Below the pieces are notes generated by a model. It was not told the origin of the DNA. It did no database searches and was given only the letters and a program-made list of their open reading frames with translations. A program made the position numbers and the translations under genes. From Dokdonia sp. (GTDB lineage Bacteria; Bacteroidota; Bacteroidia; Flavobacteriales; Flavobacteriaceae), in NCBI GenBank assembly GCA_020630915.1, contig JAHDIF010000009.1, forward strand, positions 47,680-111,679: a stretch of DNA of 64,000 nt. Reading direction: 5' to 3'. Below, piece after piece: positions 41,101 through 54,608 of this stretch. The number at the start of each line of letters is the position of its first letter. Position 1 is the stretch's first letter.

Positions 41101-42150
41101 TTAAGACCCTTCTAGCGCATTCCAACCTCTTGAAATAAGAGGTATCGTTGTGTTTGCTCTTGTAATTAAATGTTTACCATCTCCTTCTGGCAAAATGTGA
41201 CCAATAACAGTGAAATTAGGATTCCCTTTTATTTTAGGATAATCTTTTTGTGTTATACTGAACAATAATTCATAATCCTCCCCACCACTCAAGGCAATTG
41301 TTGTACTATCTATAGTAAACTCCTCACATACATTTATTACCTGAGGATCTAAAGGAATTTTATCTTCATATACGTGACACCCTACTTTAGAGTTCTTACA
41401 AATGTGCAACACTTCAGAAGAAAGCCCATCACTAATATCTATCATCGCTGTAGGAACTACCTCTAGAGCCTTCAATAACTCAACTACATCTTTACGTGCT
41501 TCTGGTTTTAACTGGCGCTCTACTATGTAGGAATACTGCTCCAAATCCGGTTGATTATTAGGATTGGCCTTAAACACGGCCTTTTCCCTTTCTAGTACCT
41601 GCAGTCCCATATATGCTGCACCTAAGTCTCCAGAAACTACCAATAAGTCATTTTCTTTGGCTCCAGAACGGTGAACAATATCTTCCTTTGCAGCATGTCC
41701 TATTGCCGTAATACTTATAACCAAACCTACGTTTGAGGAAGTTGTATCTCCACCAACAAGATCAACTTTATAATTTTTACAAGCTGCGTTAATGCCCTCA
41801 TACAAATCCTCCAGCGCTTCTAAGGGAAACCTATTTGAAACTGCTATGGAAACAGTAACCTGACTCGCAATTGCATTCATTGCATAAATATCAGATAAGT
41901 TTACCATTACCGCCTTATATCCTAAATGTTTAAGGGGGACATAACTTAAGTCAAAGTGCACGCCTTCTACTAACAAATCAGTACTAATTACTACCTGATC
42001 TTTTGAAAATTCCAAAATTGCAGCATCATCTCCCACACCTAAAACAGTTGTATCCTGACGTACAGCAAAGTTCTTAGTAAGATGCTCTATTAACCCAAAT
42101 TCACCTAATTCTCCCAAAGAGGTTCTTGATTGATCTTTATCTTCTAGCAT
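41101..42150 (-). CDS. thiL: thiamine-monophosphate kinase
   Basis: GVGDDAAIL, DLLVEGVHFDLSYVPLKHLGYKAVMVNLSDIYAM, MIDISDGLSSEVLHI. Confidence 0.93.
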   Translation of the reverse strand: MLEDKDQSRTSLGELGEFGLIEHLTKNFAVRQDTTVLGVGDDAAILEFSKDQVVISTDLLVEGVHFDLSYVPLKHLGYKAVMVNLSDIYAMNAIASQVTVSIAVSNRFPLEALEDLYEGINAACKNYKVDLVGGDTTSSNVGLVISITAIGHAAKEDIVHRSGAKENDLLVVSGDLGAAYMGLQVLEREKAVFKANPNNQPDLEQYSYIVERQLKPEARKDVVELLKALEVVPTAMIDISDGLSSEVLHICKNSKVGCHVYEDKIPLDPQVINVCEEFTIDSTTIALSGGEDYELLFSITQKDYPKIKGNPNFTVIGHILPEGDGKHLITRANTTIPLISRGWNALEGS

Positions 42151-42352
42151 AAATACAAAGGTAATAAAGGAGCTGTACAAGACTATAATTTAACTATTAA
42201 ATTTACAGTAACTGAGCTACATATAATTAGGAGAACACGACGTTCAATTGTTATATAAGTGTGTAATTGACAAGGAACTCTTTATAAGAACTTACGCTAG
42301 GCTGTATTCATTTTGTAACTTTACACAGCCAGAGCAAACAACTGCTAATCCT

Positions 42353-43765
42353 ATGAAAAAAACTATCTCACTATCATTATCTATTCTTTTTATGATCCTT
42401 TCGCTATGTGTAGTGGCTCAAACACCTTGCGAAAACAACGAAGCCAACGGATTCCCTTGCTTGGGTTATGATCTTCAAGATAGAATAACGGGTGGAGAAA
42501 TGAATGCTTCTTTTGTAAATGATAGTTGGGGATGGACCGATCCTTTAGATGGAAAAGAATATGCCCTAGTAGGTCTAAATAATGGGACTGCCTTTATTGA
42601 CATTTCCAACCCCACGGATGTTATTTATCTTGGCAAACTACCCACCCATACAGGGAATAGCATTTGGAGAGACGTAAAGGTATATAATAACTATGCCTTT
42701 ATCGTAAGCGAGGCATCTGGACATGGCATGCAAGTTTTTGATTTAACTAGACTTCGCGATGTAGATACCCCCCCTGCCATCTTTACAGAAGATGCTCATT
42801 ACAATGGTTTTGGAAATGCACACAATATCGTTATCAATACAGAAAGCGGGTTCGCATACGGTGTGGGAACTTCTACCTTTGGAGGAGGACCTCATTTTGT
42901 AAACATTCAAGACCCTTTAAATCCTATTGCCGCCGGCGGATATAGTGAAAACAACTACAGTCACGATGCCCAAGTGGTTACATACACTGGCCCAGACGTT
43001 GATTATACAGGCAGAGAAATTCTAATAGGTAGTAATGCAAATCTTGTTGCAATTGTTGATATCACAGACAAGAACAATCCTGTAGAAATTTCTACTATTT
43101 CTTATCCGGCTATTGGATATACGCACCAAGGTTGGTTTACAGAAGACCAGAAATTTTTCCTTTTAGGAGATGAAATAGATGAAATAAGTTTTGGATTCAA
43201 CACGAGAACATTAGTCTTTGATTTTGAAGATTTAGACAACCCTTTCCTGTCTTTTGAGTATGAAGGAACGAATGCCTCTACAGATCACAATGGATATGTG
43301 GTTGGCAATAGATTCTATTTAGCAAGCTATAGAGCAGGTATGAGAGTTATTGATATCTCCGATATTCAAAACCAAAATATGACAGAAATTGGATATTTTG
43401 ACACTTTCCCTCCCAATGATAATGTGGGCACCGCACAATTATGGAATGTATATCCCTTTTTTGAAAGTGGAAATATTGTACTTTCTGGAGAAAGCGGTTT
43501 TACTCTCGTAAAAGCAAATGAAACCCTGAACACTGTCGCTTTTGATCAAATTCAAGGAGTTTCTATATATCCCAACCCAGCAAAAAATATAGTCAGACTC
43601 CGAGCTAGCCAACAAATTGGCAAAATATCCGTTTACAACATATTGGGCCAAGAAGTAATCACGAGAATGGCATCTGATTATATAGAAGTAGATATATCAC
43701 ATTTACGATCTGGAATCTATTTAGTAAATACCCCTCTAGGAACTCAAAGAATTATAAAAAAATGA
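42353..43765 (+). CDS. choice-of-anchor B family beta-propeller protein with T9SS sorting domain
   Basis: SWGWTDPLDGKEYALVGLNNGTAFIDISNP...; C-terminal VSIYPNPAKNIVRL...SGIYLVNT. Confidence 0.85.
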   Translation: MKKTISLSLSILFMILSLCVVAQTPCENNEANGFPCLGYDLQDRITGGEMNASFVNDSWGWTDPLDGKEYALVGLNNGTAFIDISNPTDVIYLGKLPTHTGNSIWRDVKVYNNYAFIVSEASGHGMQVFDLTRLRDVDTPPAIFTEDAHYNGFGNAHNIVINTESGFAYGVGTSTFGGGPHFVNIQDPLNPIAAGGYSENNYSHDAQVVTYTGPDVDYTGREILIGSNANLVAIVDITDKNNPVEISTISYPAIGYTHQGWFTEDQKFFLLGDEIDEISFGFNTRTLVFDFEDLDNPFLSFEYEGTNASTDHNGYVVGNRFYLASYRAGMRVIDISDIQNQNMTEIGYFDTFPPNDNVGTAQLWNVYPFFESGNIVLSGESGFTLVKANETLNTVAFDQIQGVSIYPNPAKNIVRLRASQQIGKISVYNILGQEVITRMASDYIEVDISHLRSGIYLVNTPLGTQRIIKK

Positions 43766-45018
43766 TCATAAGAAATCTATTACTAGCTGCACTAAGTCTC
43801 TTAGCACTAGCTTCGTGTTCAAATGATGATGACCTGCCAGGAATTATTATAACGCCGGTCTCAGAAGAGACTGAAGATAATCAGGATACTATTATAGGAG
43901 ACATATTAGTTCGAACTTCTTGCGAAAATGGTTTTGCAAGTATTTATCCTTGTAATAATTATGATCTTATGTCCAGACTTACTATTGAGACACTTAACAC
44001 TACAGGAGGCAATGACATATGGGGATGGACTGATCCTTTAGATGGAAAAGAATATGCAATCGTAGGTACACGACAAGGCACTGTTTTTATAGACATTTCT
44101 AATCCAGAACAACCCCTCATTATAGGAACACTACTTACCGCAACTGCAGACTCTACTTGGCGAGATATAAAAGTATATAATAATCATGCTTTTATCGTAA
44201 GTGAAGCCGCAAATCACGGGATGCAAATTTTTGACCTTACAAGACTTCGTAATCCAGACGCAAACCCGCAAACTTTTGACGCAGATGCACAGTACACAGA
44301 CATTGGGAATGCGCATAACATTGTGATTAACGAAGATAGTGGTTATGCCTATGCAGTAGGGACTGCCACGTTTAATGGCGGAGCCCATTTTATAAATATA
44401 CAAGACCCTGTTAATCCGGTCGCAGCGGGAGGTTATGAAGTATCTGAATATACACACGATGCTCAAGTAGTTACCTATAACGGTCCTGATACAGCATATC
44501 AAGGGCAAGAAATTTTTATAGGGTGTAATGAAAATGAAGTAGTTATTATAAACGTTACAGACAAAGAGAATCCTTCCTTAATAAGCACCGTCACCTATCC
44601 GGACACTGGGTACGTCCACCAAGGGTGGCTCTCAGAAGATCATAGCTTTTATTATGCAAATGATGAGCTAGACGAAAGTCAGTTTGGTTTCGAATCTCGC
44701 ACTCTCGTTTTTGATTTTACAGATCTCGACAATCCTTTCTTTGCAAGTCCGTTTTTTGGCCCAACACAGGCAATAGATCATAACCTATACACACACAATA
44801 ATGAACTCTTCCTCTCCAACTACACGGCAGGGTTGAGAGTTGCAAGTATCGAAAATCTGTCAACACCTGTTGATATAGGTTTTTTTGATACTTTCCCAGA
44901 AAATGACAATACAGAATTCAATGGCGTTTGGAGTGTTTACCCATTTTTCGAAAGCGGCAATATCATCATAAACGATGTTTCTCAAGGACTATTTATAGTT
45001 AGAAAATCTGGATCGTAA
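43762..45018 (+). CDS. choice-of-anchor B family lipoprotein (paralog of the preceding gene)
   Basis: Lipobox LASCSNDDD; DIWGWTDPLDGKEYAIVGTRQGTVFIDISNPEQP; no T9SS CTD. Confidence 0.85.
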   Translation: MIIRNLLLAALSLLALASCSNDDDLPGIIITPVSEETEDNQDTIIGDILVRTSCENGFASIYPCNNYDLMSRLTIETLNTTGGNDIWGWTDPLDGKEYAIVGTRQGTVFIDISNPEQPLIIGTLLTATADSTWRDIKVYNNHAFIVSEAANHGMQIFDLTRLRNPDANPQTFDADAQYTDIGNAHNIVINEDSGYAYAVGTATFNGGAHFINIQDPVNPVAAGGYEVSEYTHDAQVVTYNGPDTAYQGQEIFIGCNENEVVIINVTDKENPSLISTVTYPDTGYVHQGWLSEDHSFYYANDELDESQFGFESRTLVFDFTDLDNPFFASPFFGPTQAIDHNLYTHNNELFLSNYTAGLRVASIENLSTPVDIGFFDTFPENDNTEFNGVWSVYPFFESGNIIINDVSQGLFIVRKSGS

Positions 45019-45019
45019 T

Positions 45020-46453
45020 ATGAAGAATTTTTTCGTTACTATGTCAATGAGTACGCTTTCGCGAAAGCGTTATCTGTTATTGTATATTTTTACATGCCTT
45101 GTGTGTTTTAGCTGTGAAGATGATGAAGGAGCAACTCCTGGCGAGGGGCAAGAAGATGTTAGCAATCCTGAGGATCCAGATGGAAATACGGCAGATTTTA
45201 CCGTCGAATTCTCTACTATTTACGGAGGAAGTCAGGATGACACCTTTCATCAAATAATTGCTACCAATGACGGTGGTTATGCAGCTTTAGGATACTCTCA
45301 GAGTGTAGATGGAGATATTGTAGACAATACAGAGCAAGTAAATATGTACTGGCTCGTTAAAATAGATGATCAAGGGGCAATCCAATGGTCTAAAACCTAT
45401 GGTGGCTCCGGCGATGATAGAGGAGAGCACCTCATACAGACTAATGATGGGGGCTTTGTAATTGCAGGATACACCACAAGCTCTGATGGAGACGTGTCTC
45501 AAAACGCAGGTTTTTACGATCACTGGCTACTTAAACTGGATGCTTCTGGTATCATACAATGGGAACGCAGTTACGGTTTTGCAGGCTCTGATCAATTATT
45601 ATCTGTAATACAAACCGCAGATGGAGGTTTCTTTACAGCAGGGTTTTTAGACGTATCGGCCTCTGGGGGAGCGGGAAATGATGGTTTTACAGATACCAAT
45701 AACAACACAAACAGAACTACACAACACGGTGTAGGAGAGTTTTGGGGTCATAAACTAGATGCAAATGGCCATATGGTATGGAGACGCTATTTTGGCGGTA
45801 CAAATAATGATCGTGCCTATCAAGTAATCGAAGCGCAAGATGGTGGAATTTTAATGGTAGGAGCTAGTGAGAGTAATGATTTTGATATTACAGATTCAAG
45901 AGGTAGTTATGATTACTGGGTAGTACGTTTAGACGGATCTGGTAATTTGTTGTGGGAGCAATCCTATGGAGGAACAGAAATAGATATTGCATATACAGCA
46001 ACGGCTACCGCAGATGGCGGATACTTGCTCGCAGGAGACTCTAGAAGTGGTGACCTAGATGTTTTAAGCCCAAAAGGAAATGCAGATGTATGGCTTGTAA
46101 AAATAGACGACCAAGGAAACATCCTATGGCAAAAAAGTCTCGGAGGTTCTAATTTTGAAAGTGCTAGAGCGATAGTACCTTTCAATAGTGGTTATGTTAT
46201 TACAGGAGGAGCAAGAAGCGCAGACGGTGACGTCACCTCTAATAACGGTCAAAATGATATTTGGGTCGTCACGATAGACGCAAATGGAAACATTCTTAAA
46301 CAACAGAGTTTTGGAGGAAACAATCAAGATTTTGGTTATGGGATTGCAGTGCAACAAGACAATATAATAATAGCTGGAGACACACAAAGTTCCAGTGGGA
46401 ATCTCATCGCCTCAAAAGGTGGTGTAGATGCAGTGATACTAAAACTACAATAA
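45020..46453 (+). CDS. lipoprotein with repeated propeller-like blades
   Basis: Lipobox CFSCEDDEG; repeats of YGGSGDDRGEHLIQTNDGGFVIAGYTTSSDGDV. Confidence 0.8.
   Translation: MKNFFVTMSMSTLSRKRYLLLYIFTCLVCFSCEDDEGATPGEGQEDVSNPEDPDGNTADFTVEFSTIYGGSQDDTFHQIIATNDGGYAALGYSQSVDGDIVDNTEQVNMYWLVKIDDQGAIQWSKTYGGSGDDRGEHLIQTNDGGFVIAGYTTSSDGDVSQNAGFYDHWLLKLDASGIIQWERSYGFAGSDQLLSVIQTADGGFFTAGFLDVSASGGAGNDGFTDTNNNTNRTTQHGVGEFWGHKLDANGHMVWRRYFGGTNNDRAYQVIEAQDGGILMVGASESNDFDITDSRGSYDYWVVRLDGSGNLLWEQSYGGTEIDIAYTATATADGGYLLAGDSRSGDLDVLSPKGNADVWLVKIDDQGNILWQKSLGGSNFESARAIVPFNSGYVITGGARSADGDVTSNNGQNDIWVVTIDANGNILKQQSFGGNNQDFGYGIAVQQDNIIIAGDTQSSSGNLIASKGGVDAVILKLQ
45055..45068. repeat. palindrome GCTTTCGCGAAAGC (lipoprotein N-terminus, LSRK frame)
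   Basis: Exact; encodes MSTLSRKRY. Confidence 0.97.
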
Positions 46454-46455
46454 AA

Positions 46456-47229
46456 ATGAAAAAGATTTTTTTAATCGCATTATTAACTATAGCTGCCCTG
46501 AGCTGTAAGGAAGATGAAACTCAAATACAAAACCCAGGAACCCTCAATCTCACCTTTGAGAATGCGGTAGGGACAGAACTTCTAAGTTTAGGTAATAGCT
46601 ACACAAATAGCAGTGGCGAAGGCTATAGCATACAAGAATTAAAATACATAATTTCTAATATTACGCTTACGCGAAAAGATGGTTCTCTTGTAGTTTACCC
46701 GCCAGGTCAAAGCTATTTTGTAATTAACGAAGCAGATGCAAACTCTCTCACGATACAATTAAATGATATAGAGGCTGGAGCTTATACTTCAATGACTTTT
46801 GGTTTTGGAGTAGACCCCACAAAATACCCTATTGAGTCTGGCACCCTCAATTTTATCCCTACAGCCGAAGAAGCCGGAATGTTATGGACTTGGTCTGCTG
46901 GGTATAAGTTTATAAAATTTGAAGGTGTCTATACAATCCCTCCTTTAACAGGGTCTGACCCTTTTAGAATACATGTAGGCAGCCACGGAGCAAATTTAGA
47001 CAACTACAGAGAGATTACTGTTCCATTGGGAGATGACATTGCAAATACAGATTTTACAATTGGTGAAGGAGTAAATGCCAGCCAGACGATCTATTTTGAT
47101 GTCGCTCAAGTATTTGATGGACCCAACACTATCAGTCTAGAAAACGCCTCTGACATTCAGGTTGATCCTGTAAATGCTCCTTTAATAGCCACTAACATTG
47201 CCACAGCTTTTTCTGTGCCTCAGGGATAA
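46456..47229 (+). CDS. MbnP-like lipoprotein
   Basis: Lipobox LSCKEDE; LNLTFENAVGTELL, YSIQELKYIISNITL, MLWTWSAGYKFIKFEG and FRIHVGSHG as in the MbnP family. Confidence 0.82.
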   Translation: MKKIFLIALLTIAALSCKEDETQIQNPGTLNLTFENAVGTELLSLGNSYTNSSGEGYSIQELKYIISNITLTRKDGSLVVYPPGQSYFVINEADANSLTIQLNDIEAGAYTSMTFGFGVDPTKYPIESGTLNFIPTAEEAGMLWTWSAGYKFIKFEGVYTIPPLTGSDPFRIHVGSHGANLDNYREITVPLGDDIANTDFTIGEGVNASQTIYFDVAQVFDGPNTISLENASDIQVDPVNAPLIATNIATAFSVPQG

Positions 47230-48296
47230 TGAATAAATTACTTTACATATTAGTAATCATATTTTTCTTGAGTTGCGGCTCTGATAACGAAGACTATGCT
47301 GCTATTGAAGACGAAGATCTATCCCAAACAGAAAACCCTCTATTAGATTTTTCTGTGCCAAGCAATTTTCCTGACAGCACCTATGATATTTCTCAAAACC
47401 CACCTACAGAGAAAGGATTCGAACTAGGTAAGAAATTATTCTTTGATGGCAAGCTTGCCTCAGACGGTGTAGTATCTTGTGGCTTCTGTCACATCCAAGA
47501 TTTTGCGTTTACACACCATACGCATATAACAAGTCACGGTGTAAACGGCCTGATAGGAAAACGCAACGCACAACCACTTCACAACCTTGCATTTATGAAT
47601 GAGTTTACGTGGGATGGAGCCGCTACCTTCTTAGACTCTCAGCCCATTATTCCCATTACGGCAGAAGTAGAAATGAACGAAACAATCTCTAATGTTCTTT
47701 CTAAATTAGAAGCAGACCCAAACTACCCAACACTATTTGCAGAGGCCTATGGATCAGAAGGAATTACCTCAGAACGCCTGTTCAAGTCATTATCCCAATT
47801 TATGGTCATGATGGTCAGTGCAAATTCTAAGTACGACAAATGGGAAAGAGGTGAAGCTGTTACATTTTCTGAAGACGAAGAAAATGGAAGGATTCTTTTT
47901 CAATCTAAGTGTGCCTCTTGTCACTCAGGAACCCTCCAGACAGATCAATCTTATCGCAATAATGGGCTGCCACTCGACCCTACCTTTAATGACATAGGTA
48001 GAGAAATTGTTACTGGACTCGCTAGTGACCGAAGAAAATTTAAAGTCCCTAGTTTGCGTAATATAGAAATTACGTTCCCTTATATGCATGATGGAAGAAT
48101 TGCTTCGCTAGAGGACGTATTAGATTTTTATACAGATGGTATTGTCAATAGTGAAACCTTAGATCCTCTTTTTGTACAACCTGATGGATCCTTAGGACTT
48201 GTAATTTCAAACGAGGAGAAAACTCAACTCATTGCCTTTTTAAAGACACTTACTGATACAGATTTTTTAAATGACTCTCGATTTTCTGAGTTTTGA
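47229..48296 (+). CDS. diheme cytochrome c peroxidase-like protein (MbnH-type)
   Basis: Two CxxCH motifs (CGFCH, CASCH); GKKLFFDGKLASDGVVSCGFCH; KVPSLRNIEITFPYMHDGRIASLEDVLDFY. Confidence 0.88.
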   Translation: MNKLLYILVIIFFLSCGSDNEDYAAIEDEDLSQTENPLLDFSVPSNFPDSTYDISQNPPTEKGFELGKKLFFDGKLASDGVVSCGFCHIQDFAFTHHTHITSHGVNGLIGKRNAQPLHNLAFMNEFTWDGAATFLDSQPIIPITAEVEMNETISNVLSKLEADPNYPTLFAEAYGSEGITSERLFKSLSQFMVMMVSANSKYDKWERGEAVTFSEDEENGRILFQSKCASCHSGTLQTDQSYRNNGLPLDPTFNDIGREIVTGLASDRRKFKVPSLRNIEITFPYMHDGRIASLEDVLDFYTDGIVNSETLDPLFVQPDGSLGLVISNEEKTQLIAFLKTLTDTDFLNDSRFSEF

Positions 48297-48643: not shown

Positions 48644-48675
48644 AAAAGCCTCTTTACTCACGTAATGAGGCTTTT
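48644..48675. terminator. bidirectional terminator
   Basis: AAAAGCCTC...GAGGCTTTT. Confidence 0.75.
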
Positions 48676-49735
48676 ATTTTTTAGTCCATTTCCTTGAACT
48701 GCTTTTTGTATCGGTAGGGAAATCTTCTGGAACCTCTTGAGTCACATTACCTGTTGCTGCCCATTCTACTCCACGTTGTAACGAAGTTATAAACCCTACG
48801 GACTCCATACTAAAATCCATATGCCCTAGCGCACTGTGAAAAATACGACCCATGCCATAGTTTATTGTCATTAACAAAGGCTCGTCACGACCAGAACCCT
48901 TATTATCTAGTGCCCAGGGTTGTGCATTTCCCTCTACGTCAGAAAAAGCAGTAGCTAGTACCGTAACGTTCTTAGCTGGACCACGCAGTCGGTCATACAA
49001 TTCATCTTTAGTATGCATCCATTTTTTAGGAAGTCCTTTCATAATAGGGTGTTCCGGAGATCTTATCGTGAGTAAGAATTCTATTTCTGGACCGTGCGAG
49101 GACTCTTCTCCGTTGGAAGGCTCTATATATTCATTATCATCTTTATAATATATCTGACTGCCTTTAGTAAGTGGCCTTTCACCCCATCCACCTAGACCTA
49201 TCATCTTATTAAATTCCTCCCAATCACCCCAAGCATTGTTTGCTGCATGGATAACAACGAGGCCGCCGCCTTCCCGCATATACTTCTCAAACGTGTCCCG
49301 AACTTCTGGAGAAAAATCGGTTGTTTGCCATCCAAAATTGCTAATCACCACATCGTAAGATGTAAAGTCCGGTGAATAGGTAGGGTTTTGGACAATAGTA
49401 TCATGAGGCTTATAGACTTGACCATCATTTAAGGAATATGTAGCAATCAACTCAGTTATTTGAGCGTGTTCTAATCCATCTACAGTGCCGTGATGCGGAC
49501 CTTGATAGGTGTTTTCCATACGAGCAATATCTACAATAAAAAGACCTGTTTGCTCTATATAGTCTTTCATCATCAGGGTTGTTTTGGGCCATACACCGTG
49601 ATTGTTCTGGCCATCTATAATAAGGGCTCTTAGTTGTTCTTTAGACGCTTCTTTTTCGGTATTACTGCTTGTCAAATGTTTTGTGCAGCTCACGGTGCTA
49701 CAAATAATTAAAACTAATAAAATTCTTGTTTTCAT
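48674..49735 (-). CDS. ThuA-domain lipoprotein
   Basis: RALIIDGQNNHGVWPKTT, GGGLVVIHAANNAWGDW, YGMGRIFHSALGH; lipobox VSCTK. Confidence 0.85.
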   Translation of the reverse strand: MKTRILLVLIICSTVSCTKHLTSSNTEKEASKEQLRALIIDGQNNHGVWPKTTLMMKDYIEQTGLFIVDIARMENTYQGPHHGTVDGLEHAQITELIATYSLNDGQVYKPHDTIVQNPTYSPDFTSYDVVISNFGWQTTDFSPEVRDTFEKYMREGGGLVVIHAANNAWGDWEEFNKMIGLGGWGERPLTKGSQIYYKDDNEYIEPSNGEESSHGPEIEFLLTIRSPEHPIMKGLPKKWMHTKDELYDRLRGPAKNVTVLATAFSDVEGNAQPWALDNKGSGRDEPLLMTINYGMGRIFHSALGHMDFSMESVGFITSLQRGVEWAATGNVTQEVPEDFPTDTKSSSRKWTKK

Positions 49736-49800
49736 AATTACAATTATTAAACTTCAAACTACCGTAATAATCTCAAACTACGTATTAAAATATTCCCTTA

Positions 49801-50559
49801 CTAAAAAATAAACATCTTACCTATCGCTAGAATTAATACAGTAATTAGCAAATAATAAGCTGCCTGATCTGCCCAAGCAACCTTCGTAGCAAATCTAGCA
49901 GTTAACCACCCTCCTAAGGTTTGACCAACAGCCATAATGCCCCCTATTTTCCAATCAATCATTCCTTTATATGCAAATAACCCAATAACTATTAAAGTGT
50001 ATAAAGCGATCACAAAACCTTTTAAAGCATTGCTCTCTAAAATATTAATGCGCAATACAAGCACCATAATGATGAGAAAAAATACGCCCATTCCCATCTG
50101 TATAAACCCTCCATAAAAACCTAGAGCAAACAACAAAGGAGCATATAAATACCAAGGTGGATTAAAATATACATCAGTAGCTCTTAACCATCGTTTAGGT
50201 TTTACCAACACGGCGATAAGCATAAATACAAGCATAAATCTAAAGACAGATCTAAACTGCTCATTACTCACATTAAGGGCCAACACACCTCCTGCTAGCG
50301 CCCCAATAAAAATGATCAAGATATAATTCCTACGTTTAGCTATATCCAGCTTTCCTCCTTTGTAAAAAACCCATGAAGCCACACTACTTTGTGTAAAAAT
50401 CCCTACTCGATTGGTTCCATTTGCAATATTGGGTGGCAGACCTAGTAATTCTGTGAGAATTGTAAGTGTAATAGCACTTCCGTTACCAGCAAGAGTATTA
50501 ATAGCCCCAGCAAACAAGGCGCCAAAACTAGCAAGAAGATACATTTGAAGGTCTGTCAT
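49801..50559 (-). CDS. TauE/SafE family membrane transporter
   Basis: GALFAGAINTLAGNGSAIT; 8 or so TM segments. Confidence 0.85.
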   Translation of the reverse strand: MTDLQMYLLASFGALFAGAINTLAGNGSAITLTILTELLGLPPNIANGTNRVGIFTQSSVASWVFYKGGKLDIAKRRNYILIIFIGALAGGVLALNVSNEQFRSVFRFMLVFMLIAVLVKPKRWLRATDVYFNPPWYLYAPLLFALGFYGGFIQMGMGVFFLIIMVLVLRINILESNALKGFVIALYTLIVIGLFAYKGMIDWKIGGIMAVGQTLGGWLTARFATKVAWADQAAYYLLITVLILAIGKMFIF

Positions 50560-50563
50560 ACTC

Positions 50564-52597
50564 TTATAAATCTACTACAATCCCTCCGAAGATATTAAAC
50601 TGAGGGGCTGGTTCAAAATATCGCCCTCCAAAAGCATTAATCCTCACATTATCTGTATACTCTTGATTAAGCAAATTATTCGCTCCTAGATAAGGTCTTA
50701 TCTGGGCATTCCTATAATCAAAAACATAACCCACTCTCACGTTTATCAACTCATAGCCGCTCACCTGCACATCATTAGAATCATTAGCAAATTGTGCTCC
50801 TACTAAATTTGCAATCACACTTGCGTGAAAACCACTTTTAGCAGCATGCTGCAACTCTATACTAGTGTTATGCTTAGGTATTCCTGGCAAGAAATTACCT
50901 TCAAAATTATCACCAGAGATTTGGTAATCGCTGTACCTAAACTCTGAAAAGGCATAAGAGAATGTCGCTTTCCACGCTTTCGCGAAAGCATAACTACCTT
51001 CAACCTCAACACCTATACGTTCTGTTTCTCCAGCATTTCTAAAGAACTCCCTGTCTGGAAAGGCCGCTAACTCAAAAGGAACAAGATCATCTTTTGTATT
51101 GATCAGAAAACCAACAACGCTATATTGCAATGAACCAATAACACTCCTGATTCCCAAATCTAAGTTTATAGATTTTTGCGCCTCTAGCCCTTCATTAAAC
51201 CCTTGTATGCCCGATGGATTTGCCGAAAGTTCTGAAAGTGTAGGGGTTTCAAAACTCGTAGACAGATTGGTAAAAATAGTATGACTTCTAGACAGCTCAT
51301 AATTTACACCTAAGCTAGGGTTAAAGGAAGAAAGTATAATATCTCCAGAGTCGTCACCATTACTCAAGAATGCATCTTGCGCCACTAGCTTATTATAATC
51401 ATACCGTATTCCTCCTGTGAGATACCACTTATTTAGAGTAAGGTGATCTAACAGATAAATACCTACATTGGTAAATCGTTCTTTTTGATCTAATGTTTGT
51501 TCTCCTATGTCACCTTCTAAATTTCTAAAACGTTTCCTATCATCACTTTGATATCCAAAGTCATACCCAACTTTCAAGGTATTATTTTTAATAGAATGAG
51601 ATATGCTGGCTCCTTGTCCCATATAATTTCGACCTAAGTCTATTGCTCCGCCAAATTCAAATGGGAGCTTCCCATTAAATTGCCTATTGCTATAAAAAGC
51701 ATAACTTGCTGCGGCCGTTTTTTTTGACAACTGCCAATCTAGACTGGCGCCTACTTTAAACTGCTGTACCGCTTCTTCGGTAGCAAAATCTATATTGTTT
51801 TGTCGTGCCTGACGCCTGTCGTGCTGCACTTCCTCAAGTGTAAGACCTCCAGGATCTTCTGCAAGTGGTGAGTCGCTGTAGTTAAGTATGGTTGTAAGGT
51901 GTATATTTTCGCGTAAGCGGAAAGCTCCTTTAAAATTGGTGTTGACCTGTTCAAAACCGCTCTGATCTCTATACCCATTAGAGCGACCATAATTTGCGTG
52001 AAAAAGATAATTTGCATCTGCATCTCCTATCCCAGCTGTCGCTTGGTAATTTTGAAACCCAAAAGATCCTGCTCCTACTTTCCAAGTAGAAAAATTACCT
52101 CGCAACGTATCAAAAGTCTTTGTGGTTAAAGAAATGACACCTCCCGAAGCATTACCATAAAGACTTGAACTAGAACCTTTAATGATTTCCAACCGCTCTA
52201 TAATTCCAAGATTTAGATTATCTAATTGTCCCTGTCCATCTGGCGTGGTTTCTGGAATGCCATCTACTATAAGTTTAATCCCTCGTATCCCAAAACTAGA
52301 TCGCGCACCAAAACCACGAATAGAGATACGTAAGTCTTGAGCAAAGTTTGTTGCATTTTGAGTAAATACGCCTGGCGCTTGCTGCACAAATTCTTGCAAG
52401 GAAGTTTGTTGTCTAGTGACATCTTCTTGAGTACCGCTATACACAGATATGGCAGATGTACTTTTACGCAATGAATTAGGAATTCTGTTTACTTGCAATA
52501 AAACAGTGTCTAATTGTTGCTCTGGGATAGAATCATTTTGTGCAAAACATACTTGGATTACACTTAAAAAAACGAGTAGTAAGCTTGATCTTTTCAA
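50564..52597 (-). CDS. TonB-dependent receptor (siderophore/FecA-like)
   Basis: Plug ISIRGFGARSSFGIRGIKLIVDGIPETTPDGQGQLDNLNLG; C-terminal barrel. Confidence 0.9.
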   Translation of the reverse strand: MKRSSLLLVFLSVIQVCFAQNDSIPEQQLDTVLLQVNRIPNSLRKSTSAISVYSGTQEDVTRQQTSLQEFVQQAPGVFTQNATNFAQDLRISIRGFGARSSFGIRGIKLIVDGIPETTPDGQGQLDNLNLGIIERLEIIKGSSSSLYGNASGGVISLTTKTFDTLRGNFSTWKVGAGSFGFQNYQATAGIGDADANYLFHANYGRSNGYRDQSGFEQVNTNFKGAFRLRENIHLTTILNYSDSPLAEDPGGLTLEEVQHDRRQARQNNIDFATEEAVQQFKVGASLDWQLSKKTAAASYAFYSNRQFNGKLPFEFGGAIDLGRNYMGQGASISHSIKNNTLKVGYDFGYQSDDRKRFRNLEGDIGEQTLDQKERFTNVGIYLLDHLTLNKWYLTGGIRYDYNKLVAQDAFLSNGDDSGDIILSSFNPSLGVNYELSRSHTIFTNLSTSFETPTLSELSANPSGIQGFNEGLEAQKSINLDLGIRSVIGSLQYSVVGFLINTKDDLVPFELAAFPDREFFRNAGETERIGVEVEGSYAFAKAWKATFSYAFSEFRYSDYQISGDNFEGNFLPGIPKHNTSIELQHAAKSGFHASVIANLVGAQFANDSNDVQVSGYELINVRVGYVFDYRNAQIRPYLGANNLLNQEYTDNVRINAFGGRYFEPAPQFNIFGGIVVDL
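50976..50989. repeat. palindrome GCTTTCGCGAAAGC (in TonB receptor, AFAKA frame)
   Basis: Exact; encodes YAFAKAW. Confidence 0.97.
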
Positions 52598-52787: not shown

Positions 52788-53117
52788 ATGATTACAGTAA
52801 GTCCAGAAGCAAAAATTAAGGTAGCCGCTCTTATGCAAGATGACGGTTACGATATCGCTACAGACTACGTGCGCGTAGGTGTGACTAGTGGTGGATGTAG
52901 CGGCCTTTCATACGAACTTAAATTTGATAAAACCCAGTCAGAAGGCGACAAGGTTTTTGAAGATAATGACGTAAAATTAATAGTAGATAAAAAAAGTTTC
53001 CTTTACCTCATAGGTACTACGCTAGAATATAGTGGTGGACTAAACGGAAAAGGATTTGTGTTTAACAACCCCAATGCACAGCGTACCTGTGGTTGTGGAG
53101 AGAGTTTTTCACTATAA
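52788..53117 (+). CDS. sufA: A-type iron-sulfur carrier protein
   Basis: GVTSGGCSGLSYELKFD and RTCGCGESFSL cysteines. Confidence 0.92.
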   Translation: MITVSPEAKIKVAALMQDDGYDIATDYVRVGVTSGGCSGLSYELKFDKTQSEGDKVFEDNDVKLIVDKKSFLYLIGTTLEYSGGLNGKGFVFNNPNAQRTCGCGESFSL

Positions 53118-53124
53118 GTAATAC

Positions 53125-53138
53125 GCTTTCGCGAAAGC
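53125..53138. repeat. palindrome GCTTTCGCGAAAGC (sufA-sufB intergenic)
   Basis: Exact; 20-bp extended form. Confidence 0.97.
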
Positions 53139-53162
53139 GTAGACAAGCTAGAAAAAGATATC

Positions 53163-54608
53163 ATGGCATATACTGAAGATGATTTAAGGGAAGAATTAAA
53201 AACCAAAGAATATGAGTACGGTTTTTATACAGACATCGAGTCTGATACATTTCCTATAGGATTAAACGAAGACATCGTTCGTGCAATTTCTAAGAAAAAG
53301 GAAGAGCCAGAATGGATGACAGAGTGGCGCTTAGAGGCCTATAGAGCTTGGGAACAAATGGAAGAGCCAGAATGGGCTAATGTGCACTACGAGAAGCCTG
53401 ACTTTCAAGCGATTGCTTACTACTCTGCTCCGGTAGCTGTAGACCCGAACAAAACACTTGATGACGTAGATCCAGATCTTCTTGCAATGTACAAGAAACT
53501 AGGCATCTCCGTAGATGAGCAAAAGAAAATGAATAATATCGCGATGGATATCGTGGTAGATTCAGTATCTGTAGCAACCACATTTAAAGATACATTAGCC
53601 AAAAAAGGTATCATCTTTATGCCTATTTCCGAAGCCATTCAAGAACATCCTGAACTGGTAAAAAAATATATAGGTTCTGTAGTACCTAGAAAAGATAATT
53701 TTTATGCGGCCTTAAACAGCGCTGTATTTTCAGATGGATCTTTCTGCTATATTCCCAAAGGCGTTCGGTGCCCTATGGAACTTTCTACCTATTTTAGAAT
53801 TAACCAAGCAGGAACAGGACAGTTCGAAAGAACACTAGTCATTGCAGATGAAGGTAGTTATGTAAGTTACCTAGAAGGCTGTACTGCTCCTAGCCGTGAT
53901 GAGAATCAATTGCATGCTGCCGTAGTAGAGCTTATTGCACTAGACGATGCAGAGATTAAGTACTCTACTGTGCAAAACTGGTTTCCAGGAAATGCAGAAG
54001 GGAAAGGTGGTGTTTACAATTTTGTAACAAAGCGTGGTATTTGCGAGAAGAATGCTAAAATTTCTTGGACCCAAGTAGAGACAGGATCTGCCGTTACTTG
54101 GAAGTATCCTTCTTGCGTATTAAAAGGAGATAACTCTATTGGCGAATTCTATTCTATAGCGGTAACTAACAACTATCAGCAAGCAGATACGGGAACAAAA
54201 ATGATACACCTGGGTAAAAACACCAAGAGCACTATTATATCCAAAGGTATATCTGCAGGAAAATCACAGAACTCATATAGAGGTCTGGTACAAATAGGAG
54301 GACGTGCAGAGAATGCCCGTAACTTCTCACAATGTGATAGTTTATTAATGGGTAATGACTGTGGTGCGCACACTTTCCCATACATAGAGGCAAAAAACAA
54401 GACAGCACAAATAGAGCACGAAGCTACAACAAGTAAAATAGGTGAAGATCAAATTTTCTATTGTAACCAGCGTGGTATTGACACAGAAAAAGCGATTGCT
54501 CTTATTGTAAACGGGTTTAGTAAAGAAGTACTCAACAAGCTTCCAATGGAGTTTGCGGTAGAAGCTCAAAAACTACTTGAAATTAGTTTAGAAGGATCTG
54601 TTGGGTAG
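53163..54608 (+). CDS. sufB: Fe-S cluster assembly protein SufB
   Basis: [48 protein letters not shown]. Confidence 0.96.

Follow-up and report, generated by a model that had tools for sequence, protein, structure and literature searches.

What would an MbnP/MbnH-like pair do in a flavobacterium, directly behind a row of genes for surface propellers? The question is raised by a stretch of 64,000 nucleotides from a Dokdonia sp. genome (contig JAHDIF010000009.1; hereafter the window), in which positions 42353-48296 hold five plus-strand open reading frames that nearly touch one another (gaps of -4, 1, 2 and -1 bases): two propellers of the choice-of-anchor B family (TIGR04312; cB1 and cB2), a third propeller gene (prop3), and homologs of MbnP and of the diheme enzyme MbnH. 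In Methylosinus, MbnH reportedly oxidises a tryptophan of MbnP to kynurenine, which lets MbnP hold copper. An earlier note on this DNA had described the same tight run as a possible copper-handling or protein-modification module of marine Bacteroidetes; all five reading frames were found in place, with profiles in agreement, and the analysis suggests that the pair probably serves surface propellers bearing an invariant ring of histidines. The run comprises:

42353-43765, plus strand: cB1, choice-of-anchor B seven-bladed LVIVD propeller with a signal peptide and a type A sorting tail of the type IX secretion system (T9SS) (TIGR04312, 2.1e-159; Por_Secre_tail, 1.9e-12)
43565-43762, plus strand: C-terminal T9SS sorting domain of cB1, residues 405-470 (profile search)
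43762-45018, plus strand: cB2, choice-of-anchor B propeller, lipoprotein (LASC-SNDDD; TIGR04312, 1.3e-163; model with a predicted local distance difference test score, pLDDT, of 88.3)
44314-44781, plus strand: four-histidine set of cB2, H185 (44314-44316), H232 (44455-44457), H286 (44617-44619) and H340 (44779-44781) (alignments; strand positions in the model)
45020-46453, plus strand: prop3, repeat propeller lipoprotein (FSC-EDDEG; open reading frame and weak profile match)
46456-47229, plus strand: MbnP-family lipoprotein (LSC-KEDET; PF20243, 5.7e-40; model matches only the MbnP of 7l6g)
46879-46974, plus strand: putative copper/kynurenine site of MbnP, M142 (46879), W144 (46885), W146 (46891) and H173 (46972-46974) (alignment with GMAWNW and HVGS of 7l6g)
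47229-48296, plus strand: MbnH-like diheme lipoprotein of the cytochrome c peroxidase (CCP)/MauG family (LSC-GSDNED; PF03150, 2.6e-49; TIGR04039, 1.8e-67, under its cut-off; MbnH 6e1c, 1.5e-39)

The last two genes form a genuine MbnP/MbnH-type pair. The MbnP homolog reaches 137.7 bits with PF20243 (gathering score 27), and the residues that align with the modified tryptophan and the copper ligands, on which the earlier note had made its proposal depend, are kept: the Met and the WxW lie in residues 142-157, MLWTWSAGYKFIKFEG, and, like the His further on, are also conserved in WxW-bearing relatives. The ligand roles of these four residues we take from published work on the Methylosinus protein. 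An AlphaFold model (mean pLDDT 87) matched, among PDB entries at E<=0.001, six chains of 7l6g only, with a template modelling score of about 0.5. Its partner reaches 168.1 bits with the CCP_MauG profile PF03150 (cut-off 25.6), shows the two haem motifs previously noticed (CGFCH, residues 84-88, 47478-47492; CASCH, residues 228-232, 47910-47924) and has the solved structures of a di-heme peroxidase (1iqc, 7e-41) and of MbnH (6e1c) among its best matches. On the other hand, the curated equivalog cut-offs are reached neither by MbnP (TIGR04052, 48.2 against 140 bits) nor by MbnH (TIGR04039, 227.8 against 362.85 bits, though this is its best NCBIfam model), and the latter is also under the cut-off for MauG of methylamine dehydrogenase (TIGR03791, 180.8 against 443.85 bits). 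For this reason both are classed, on their sequences, as superfamily members and not as curated equivalogs, so that the names given in the earlier note hold for the superfamily pair, established by profiles, motifs and fold, and not at the equivalog level. With the Methylosinus trichosporium OB3b proteins (7l6g, 6e1c; TIGR04052/TIGR04039) they share adjacent genes, the M-x-W-x-W motif with its His, the MbnP fold and two CxxCH motifs; they differ from them in lacking a methanobactin operon, in both being lipoproteins, in falling under the curated cut-offs and in sharing an operon with surface propellers. The methanobactin marker MbnB (PF05114) has no match in the whole window genome (99.9% complete), as had been claimed from the visible genes, and this genome holds one MbnP, two cB and one further CCP/MauG gene elsewhere.

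The neighbourhood of the pair was surveyed in 121 genomes of the family. Among the 65 MbnP genes present, 64 have MbnH directly downstream, and upstream of 39, on the same strand, lie one to five cB genes, nearly always with room for one gene (prop3) in between; the association is conserved far above chance, which agrees with the coupling to surface propellers proposed previously and goes against the other refuting condition of the earlier note, a lack of conserved neighbours. The window locus shares its operon-like spacing with 38 others. In the fetched loci the module typically occupies a slot between thiL and the suf genes, in the order thiL, cB (one to five), prop3, MbnP, MbnH, sufA, sufB, sufC, sufD, with gaps mostly under 50 bases within the module and about 100-200 bases to suf. 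In the window, the slot is bounded by:

41101-42180, minus strand: thiL-like gene, upstream bound of the conserved slot, outside the module (recognised from sequence; position conserved)
52788-54608, plus strand: HesB/SufA-like gene and sufB, downstream bound of the conserved slot (recognised from sequence; position conserved)

Across 80 named cB loci, drawn solely from Bacteroidota and almost wholly from Flavobacteriaceae, prop3, MbnP and MbnH occur together in 51, prop3 without the pair in 25, and MbnP without MbnH in none, while prop3 adjoins cB in nearly all. Two Aquimarina loci (L183, L214) carry the whole module at another site, near ATP synthase and biotin-like genes; therefore, what is conserved is a four-gene unit and not merely a genomic address. 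Moreover, a search of 72,556 plasmid records found a single cB gene, on a replicon of the gammaproteobacterium Pseudoalteromonas xiamenensis, where the adjoining, divergent genes are MbnP and MbnH and all three exceed the curated cut-offs (MbnH 503/363, MbnP 153/140, cB 464/100 bits); the search of viral contigs gave nothing. The coupling of the pair to propellers has thus arisen more than once, and the confinement to marine Bacteroidetes suggested by the earlier note does not hold.

Within the slot, the MbnP genes are of two kinds. Apart from the window protein, 18 of 89 (Dokdonia, Kordia, Aquimarina, Mesonia) have M-x-W-x-W, and 71 belong to a sister lineage that reads W/F-N-V/W-P...GGGYH, so that WxW is absent from most slot MbnPs. 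In this sister lineage the position of the kynurenine tryptophan is Phe in 18 and Asn in 1 of the 71 proteins, mainly in Winogradskyella, Lacinutrix and Polaribacter (e.g. L084, L096, L097, L155-L158, L189, L194, L205), though MbnH remains, with both haem motifs in the three of three Trp-less loci inspected. Because the residue is lost in 19 of 71 with MbnH kept, kynurenine cannot serve as the function of all slot MbnPs, the Trp-to-Kyn account does not extend to the entire family, and in the Trp-less loci MbnH must act otherwise. In the MbnH tree, the partners of the two MbnP kinds fall in separate, well supported parts, the window enzyme with those of WxW MbnP, and non-slot and other-family MbnH lie between them; a single clade of all slot MbnH is rejected (approximately unbiased test, p 2e-101). 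A quick, rough tree of prop3 shows about four changes of slot state, the loci without the pair forming one clade. Separate MbnH lineages and few changes of state indicate that independent recruitments within the family were few, but more than one.

Some other arrangements were observed around MbnPH. One to several genes separate MbnP from MbnH in Kordia (L163, L175, L192, L199), the one place where the pair was seen to be clearly interrupted, and Urechidicola (L162) has two tandem MbnP genes between prop3 and a single MbnH. Non-slot WxW pairs of Flavobacteriaceae (L099-L114, e.g. L101:8011-8334 and L101:10285-11277) are flanked by a conserved protein of 107-130 amino acids (CNGxCHLxKQL) and by a putative outer-membrane protein of 320-350 amino acids (FCDxCxCxTSSGSxGxGTL), neither of which matches any Pfam or NCBIfam model. 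In the window genome, three minus-strand genes (48674-52597) are inserted between MbnH and suf; they encode a ThuA-like protein, a TSUP-like permease and a TonB receptor (which scores 352 bits with the model for PqqU, far under its cut-off), and minus-strand genes of similar length (382, 252 and 669 amino acids) stand at the same place in another Dokdonia locus (L139).

To our knowledge, the choice-of-anchor B family has no assigned function. Both window members far exceed the TIGR04312 cut-off of 100 bits (530.7 for cB1 and 544.5 for cB2), and cB2 is modelled as a seven-bladed propeller (mean pLDDT 88). By inspection of its predicted strands, H185, H232, H286 and H340 each open the innermost strand of one of blades 3-6, and R134 and two Trp occupy the matching places on other blades (register read from the strand list). 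These four His are invariant in 31 aligned cB sequences from many Bacteroidota families, as are R134, the two Trp and the motifs WGW, HDA, HQGW and DHN, with the pair nearby or not, and some 20 residues are invariant in all, the four His included. They are also readable in the Pseudoalteromonas cB, where an insertion shifts the H185 column of the alignment and the sequence reads RAHNVYV. In known metal propellers, four His are likewise set round a seven-bladed channel; for cB, such a ring is inferred from the strand order of the model. In contrast, the sole profile match of prop3 is a weak one to a model of SBBP-propeller lipoproteins (33.5 bits, cut-off 400); its only invariant His, H236 in QHGVGEFWG, lies inside an insertion and is kept in 52 of 52 sequences. 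A long cB paralog of 1030-1080 amino acids, away from the slot and without MbnPH, was seen in many genomes (L125, the second cB of G055, G064, G077, G091, G102).

The His set of cB, whose members take equivalent positions on consecutive blades (alignment and model strands), recalls methanethiol oxidase (MtoX/SBP56), a copper propeller whose ligands are conserved His and whose mtoX operon also encodes the copper chaperone SCO1 and a homolog of MauG (PMC5739008; PMC10362175). Both systems thus place a propeller with invariant His beside copper-handling and MauG-like genes. However, cB is not SBP56, for which PF05694 has no match in the window genome, and the copper partner would be MbnP instead of SCO1. 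In hydrazine synthase, too, a propeller and a MauG-like subunit form one complex (PMC12607021). Its beta-gamma part (5c2v) resembles the genes of the window in pairing a propeller with a diheme protein of the MauG type, but it is an anammox enzyme with a cofactor-free propeller and no MbnP.

Taken together, the five genes may be regarded as one operon for a metal module of the cell envelope, probably exposed at the surface; promoter and terminator scans, which gave fewer sites than in shuffled sequence, were given no weight. MbnH would use peroxide to oxidise W144, the first Trp of WxW, to kynurenine, as in Methylosinus, and the modified MbnP would bind a copper ion; both steps are proposed by homology to that system and from the residues kept. 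Copper-loaded MbnP would then supply or mature the propellers encoded beside it, presumably on the cell surface, and the four His that would ring the central channel of cB are proposed as the metal site. A copper chaperone and MauG-like genes are presumed to play a comparable part for methanethiol oxidase. This last step, with transfer from MbnP to propeller as its presumed direction, is suggested by the recurrence of the genes side by side, by the four His and by that analogy. The whole chain is given a probability of roughly 0.35.

Several observations weigh against it. The first is the lost tryptophan of the sister lineage described above. Furthermore, cB proteins with the same four His are common in Bacteroidota without the pair nearby, so that the pair is no requirement for cB, and 20 MbnP loci outside the family, within Bacteroidota, have no cB within about 8 kb, which means that the partnership is not general either. 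Finally, the solved structure nearest to cB in fold is not a copper oxidase: in the search with cB2, a metal-dependent phosphotriesterase from Sphingobium (Sb-PTE, 5hrm) ranked first, the beta subunit of hydrazine synthase (5c2v_B) 24th and SBP56 only 33rd. Although LVIVD-type repeats are common to cB and Sb-PTE, the sequences match at the repeat level only, and a phosphotriesterase function was not adopted.

The same genes could be explained by other means. It is conceivable, though doubtful, that MbnPH builds a copper-binding surface lipoprotein for scavenging or storage, with the propellers as scaffolds or binding partners devoid of redox metal. Lipobox cysteines occur in cB2, prop3, MbnP and MbnH of the window, mostly followed by acidic residues; acidic residues also follow in 30 of the 33 recognised slot MbnP lipoboxes, and are of the kind that exports lipoproteins to the surface in Bacteroidota, to which the T9SS tail of cB1 can be added. 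A precedent exists in CorA/CorB of Methylomicrobium album and MopE/SACCP of Methylococcus capsulatus, in which a surface-associated copper protein has a diheme protein as its partner (PMC3621798; PMC3912023, PMC3423442); these systems have no propellers, and their sequences are not markedly similar to MbnP (PMC3621798). Scavenging or storage would leave unexplained, however, both the enzyme-like invariance of the cB residues and the fact that it is to cB genes specifically that the pair has come back. Less likely still, MbnH might act directly on the propellers, oxidising or cross-linking a Trp of cB (WGW 87-89, W133 or W390 in cB2) or of prop3 in a cofactor maturation like that by MauG, with MbnP as a copper or electron-transfer adaptor. 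MauG does form a cofactor from Trp in a protein other than itself (PMC5739008), the cB WGW is invariant in Bacteroidota, and MbnH persists in loci whose MbnP no longer has the Trp; yet the same Trp residues are invariant in cB proteins without MbnPH, and Pseudoalteromonas has His in place of the second Trp of WGW.

The remaining explanations deny the partnership in whole or in part. The enzyme might be an ordinary diheme peroxidase that guards the envelope from peroxide, with MbnP as a passenger, as its strong CCP profile, the equally good score of 1iqc and the unmet MbnH cut-off would allow; its place directly downstream of 64 of the 65 MbnP genes and its grouping in the tree with partners of WxW MbnP render this improbable. 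It is very improbable that position alone accounts for the association, the pair having once entered a stable site between thiL and suf and been passed on along with that site. The stability of the slot, the 25 of 80 loci with cB and prop3 and no MbnPH, and the small number of state changes on the prop3 tree fit such a history, but the slot is shared by two MbnPH lineages that are unrelated to each other, which speaks against it, as do the intact module at other sites and the unlinked, divergently oriented recurrence in Pseudoalteromonas. A functional link of some kind between pair and propellers is, in any case, very likely.

A bolder version of the proposal, in which the cB propellers are an unrecognised class of surface four-His metalloenzymes, MbnPH inserts their copper or makes their cofactor after having been recruited to them several times, and in most Flavobacteriaceae MbnP has acquired a new site (W/F-N-V/W-P-x-x-L-GGGYH) that works without WxW kynurenine, is speculative and, as a whole, unlikely. 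The literature search found, in the papers that it covered, no mention of 'choice-of-anchor B' or 'metallo-mystery pair', although earlier notice of LVIVD neighbours in papers or supplements on MbnH/MbnP is possible. MbnP/MbnH pairs are widespread, and a recurring partnership with one propeller family would offer a concrete client protein for them outside methanotrophs. The invariant four-His set, in turn, makes the cB family a candidate for a metalloenzyme, and the Trp-less sister lineage of MbnP may be regarded as a natural experiment on the role of MbnH without its known substrate residue.

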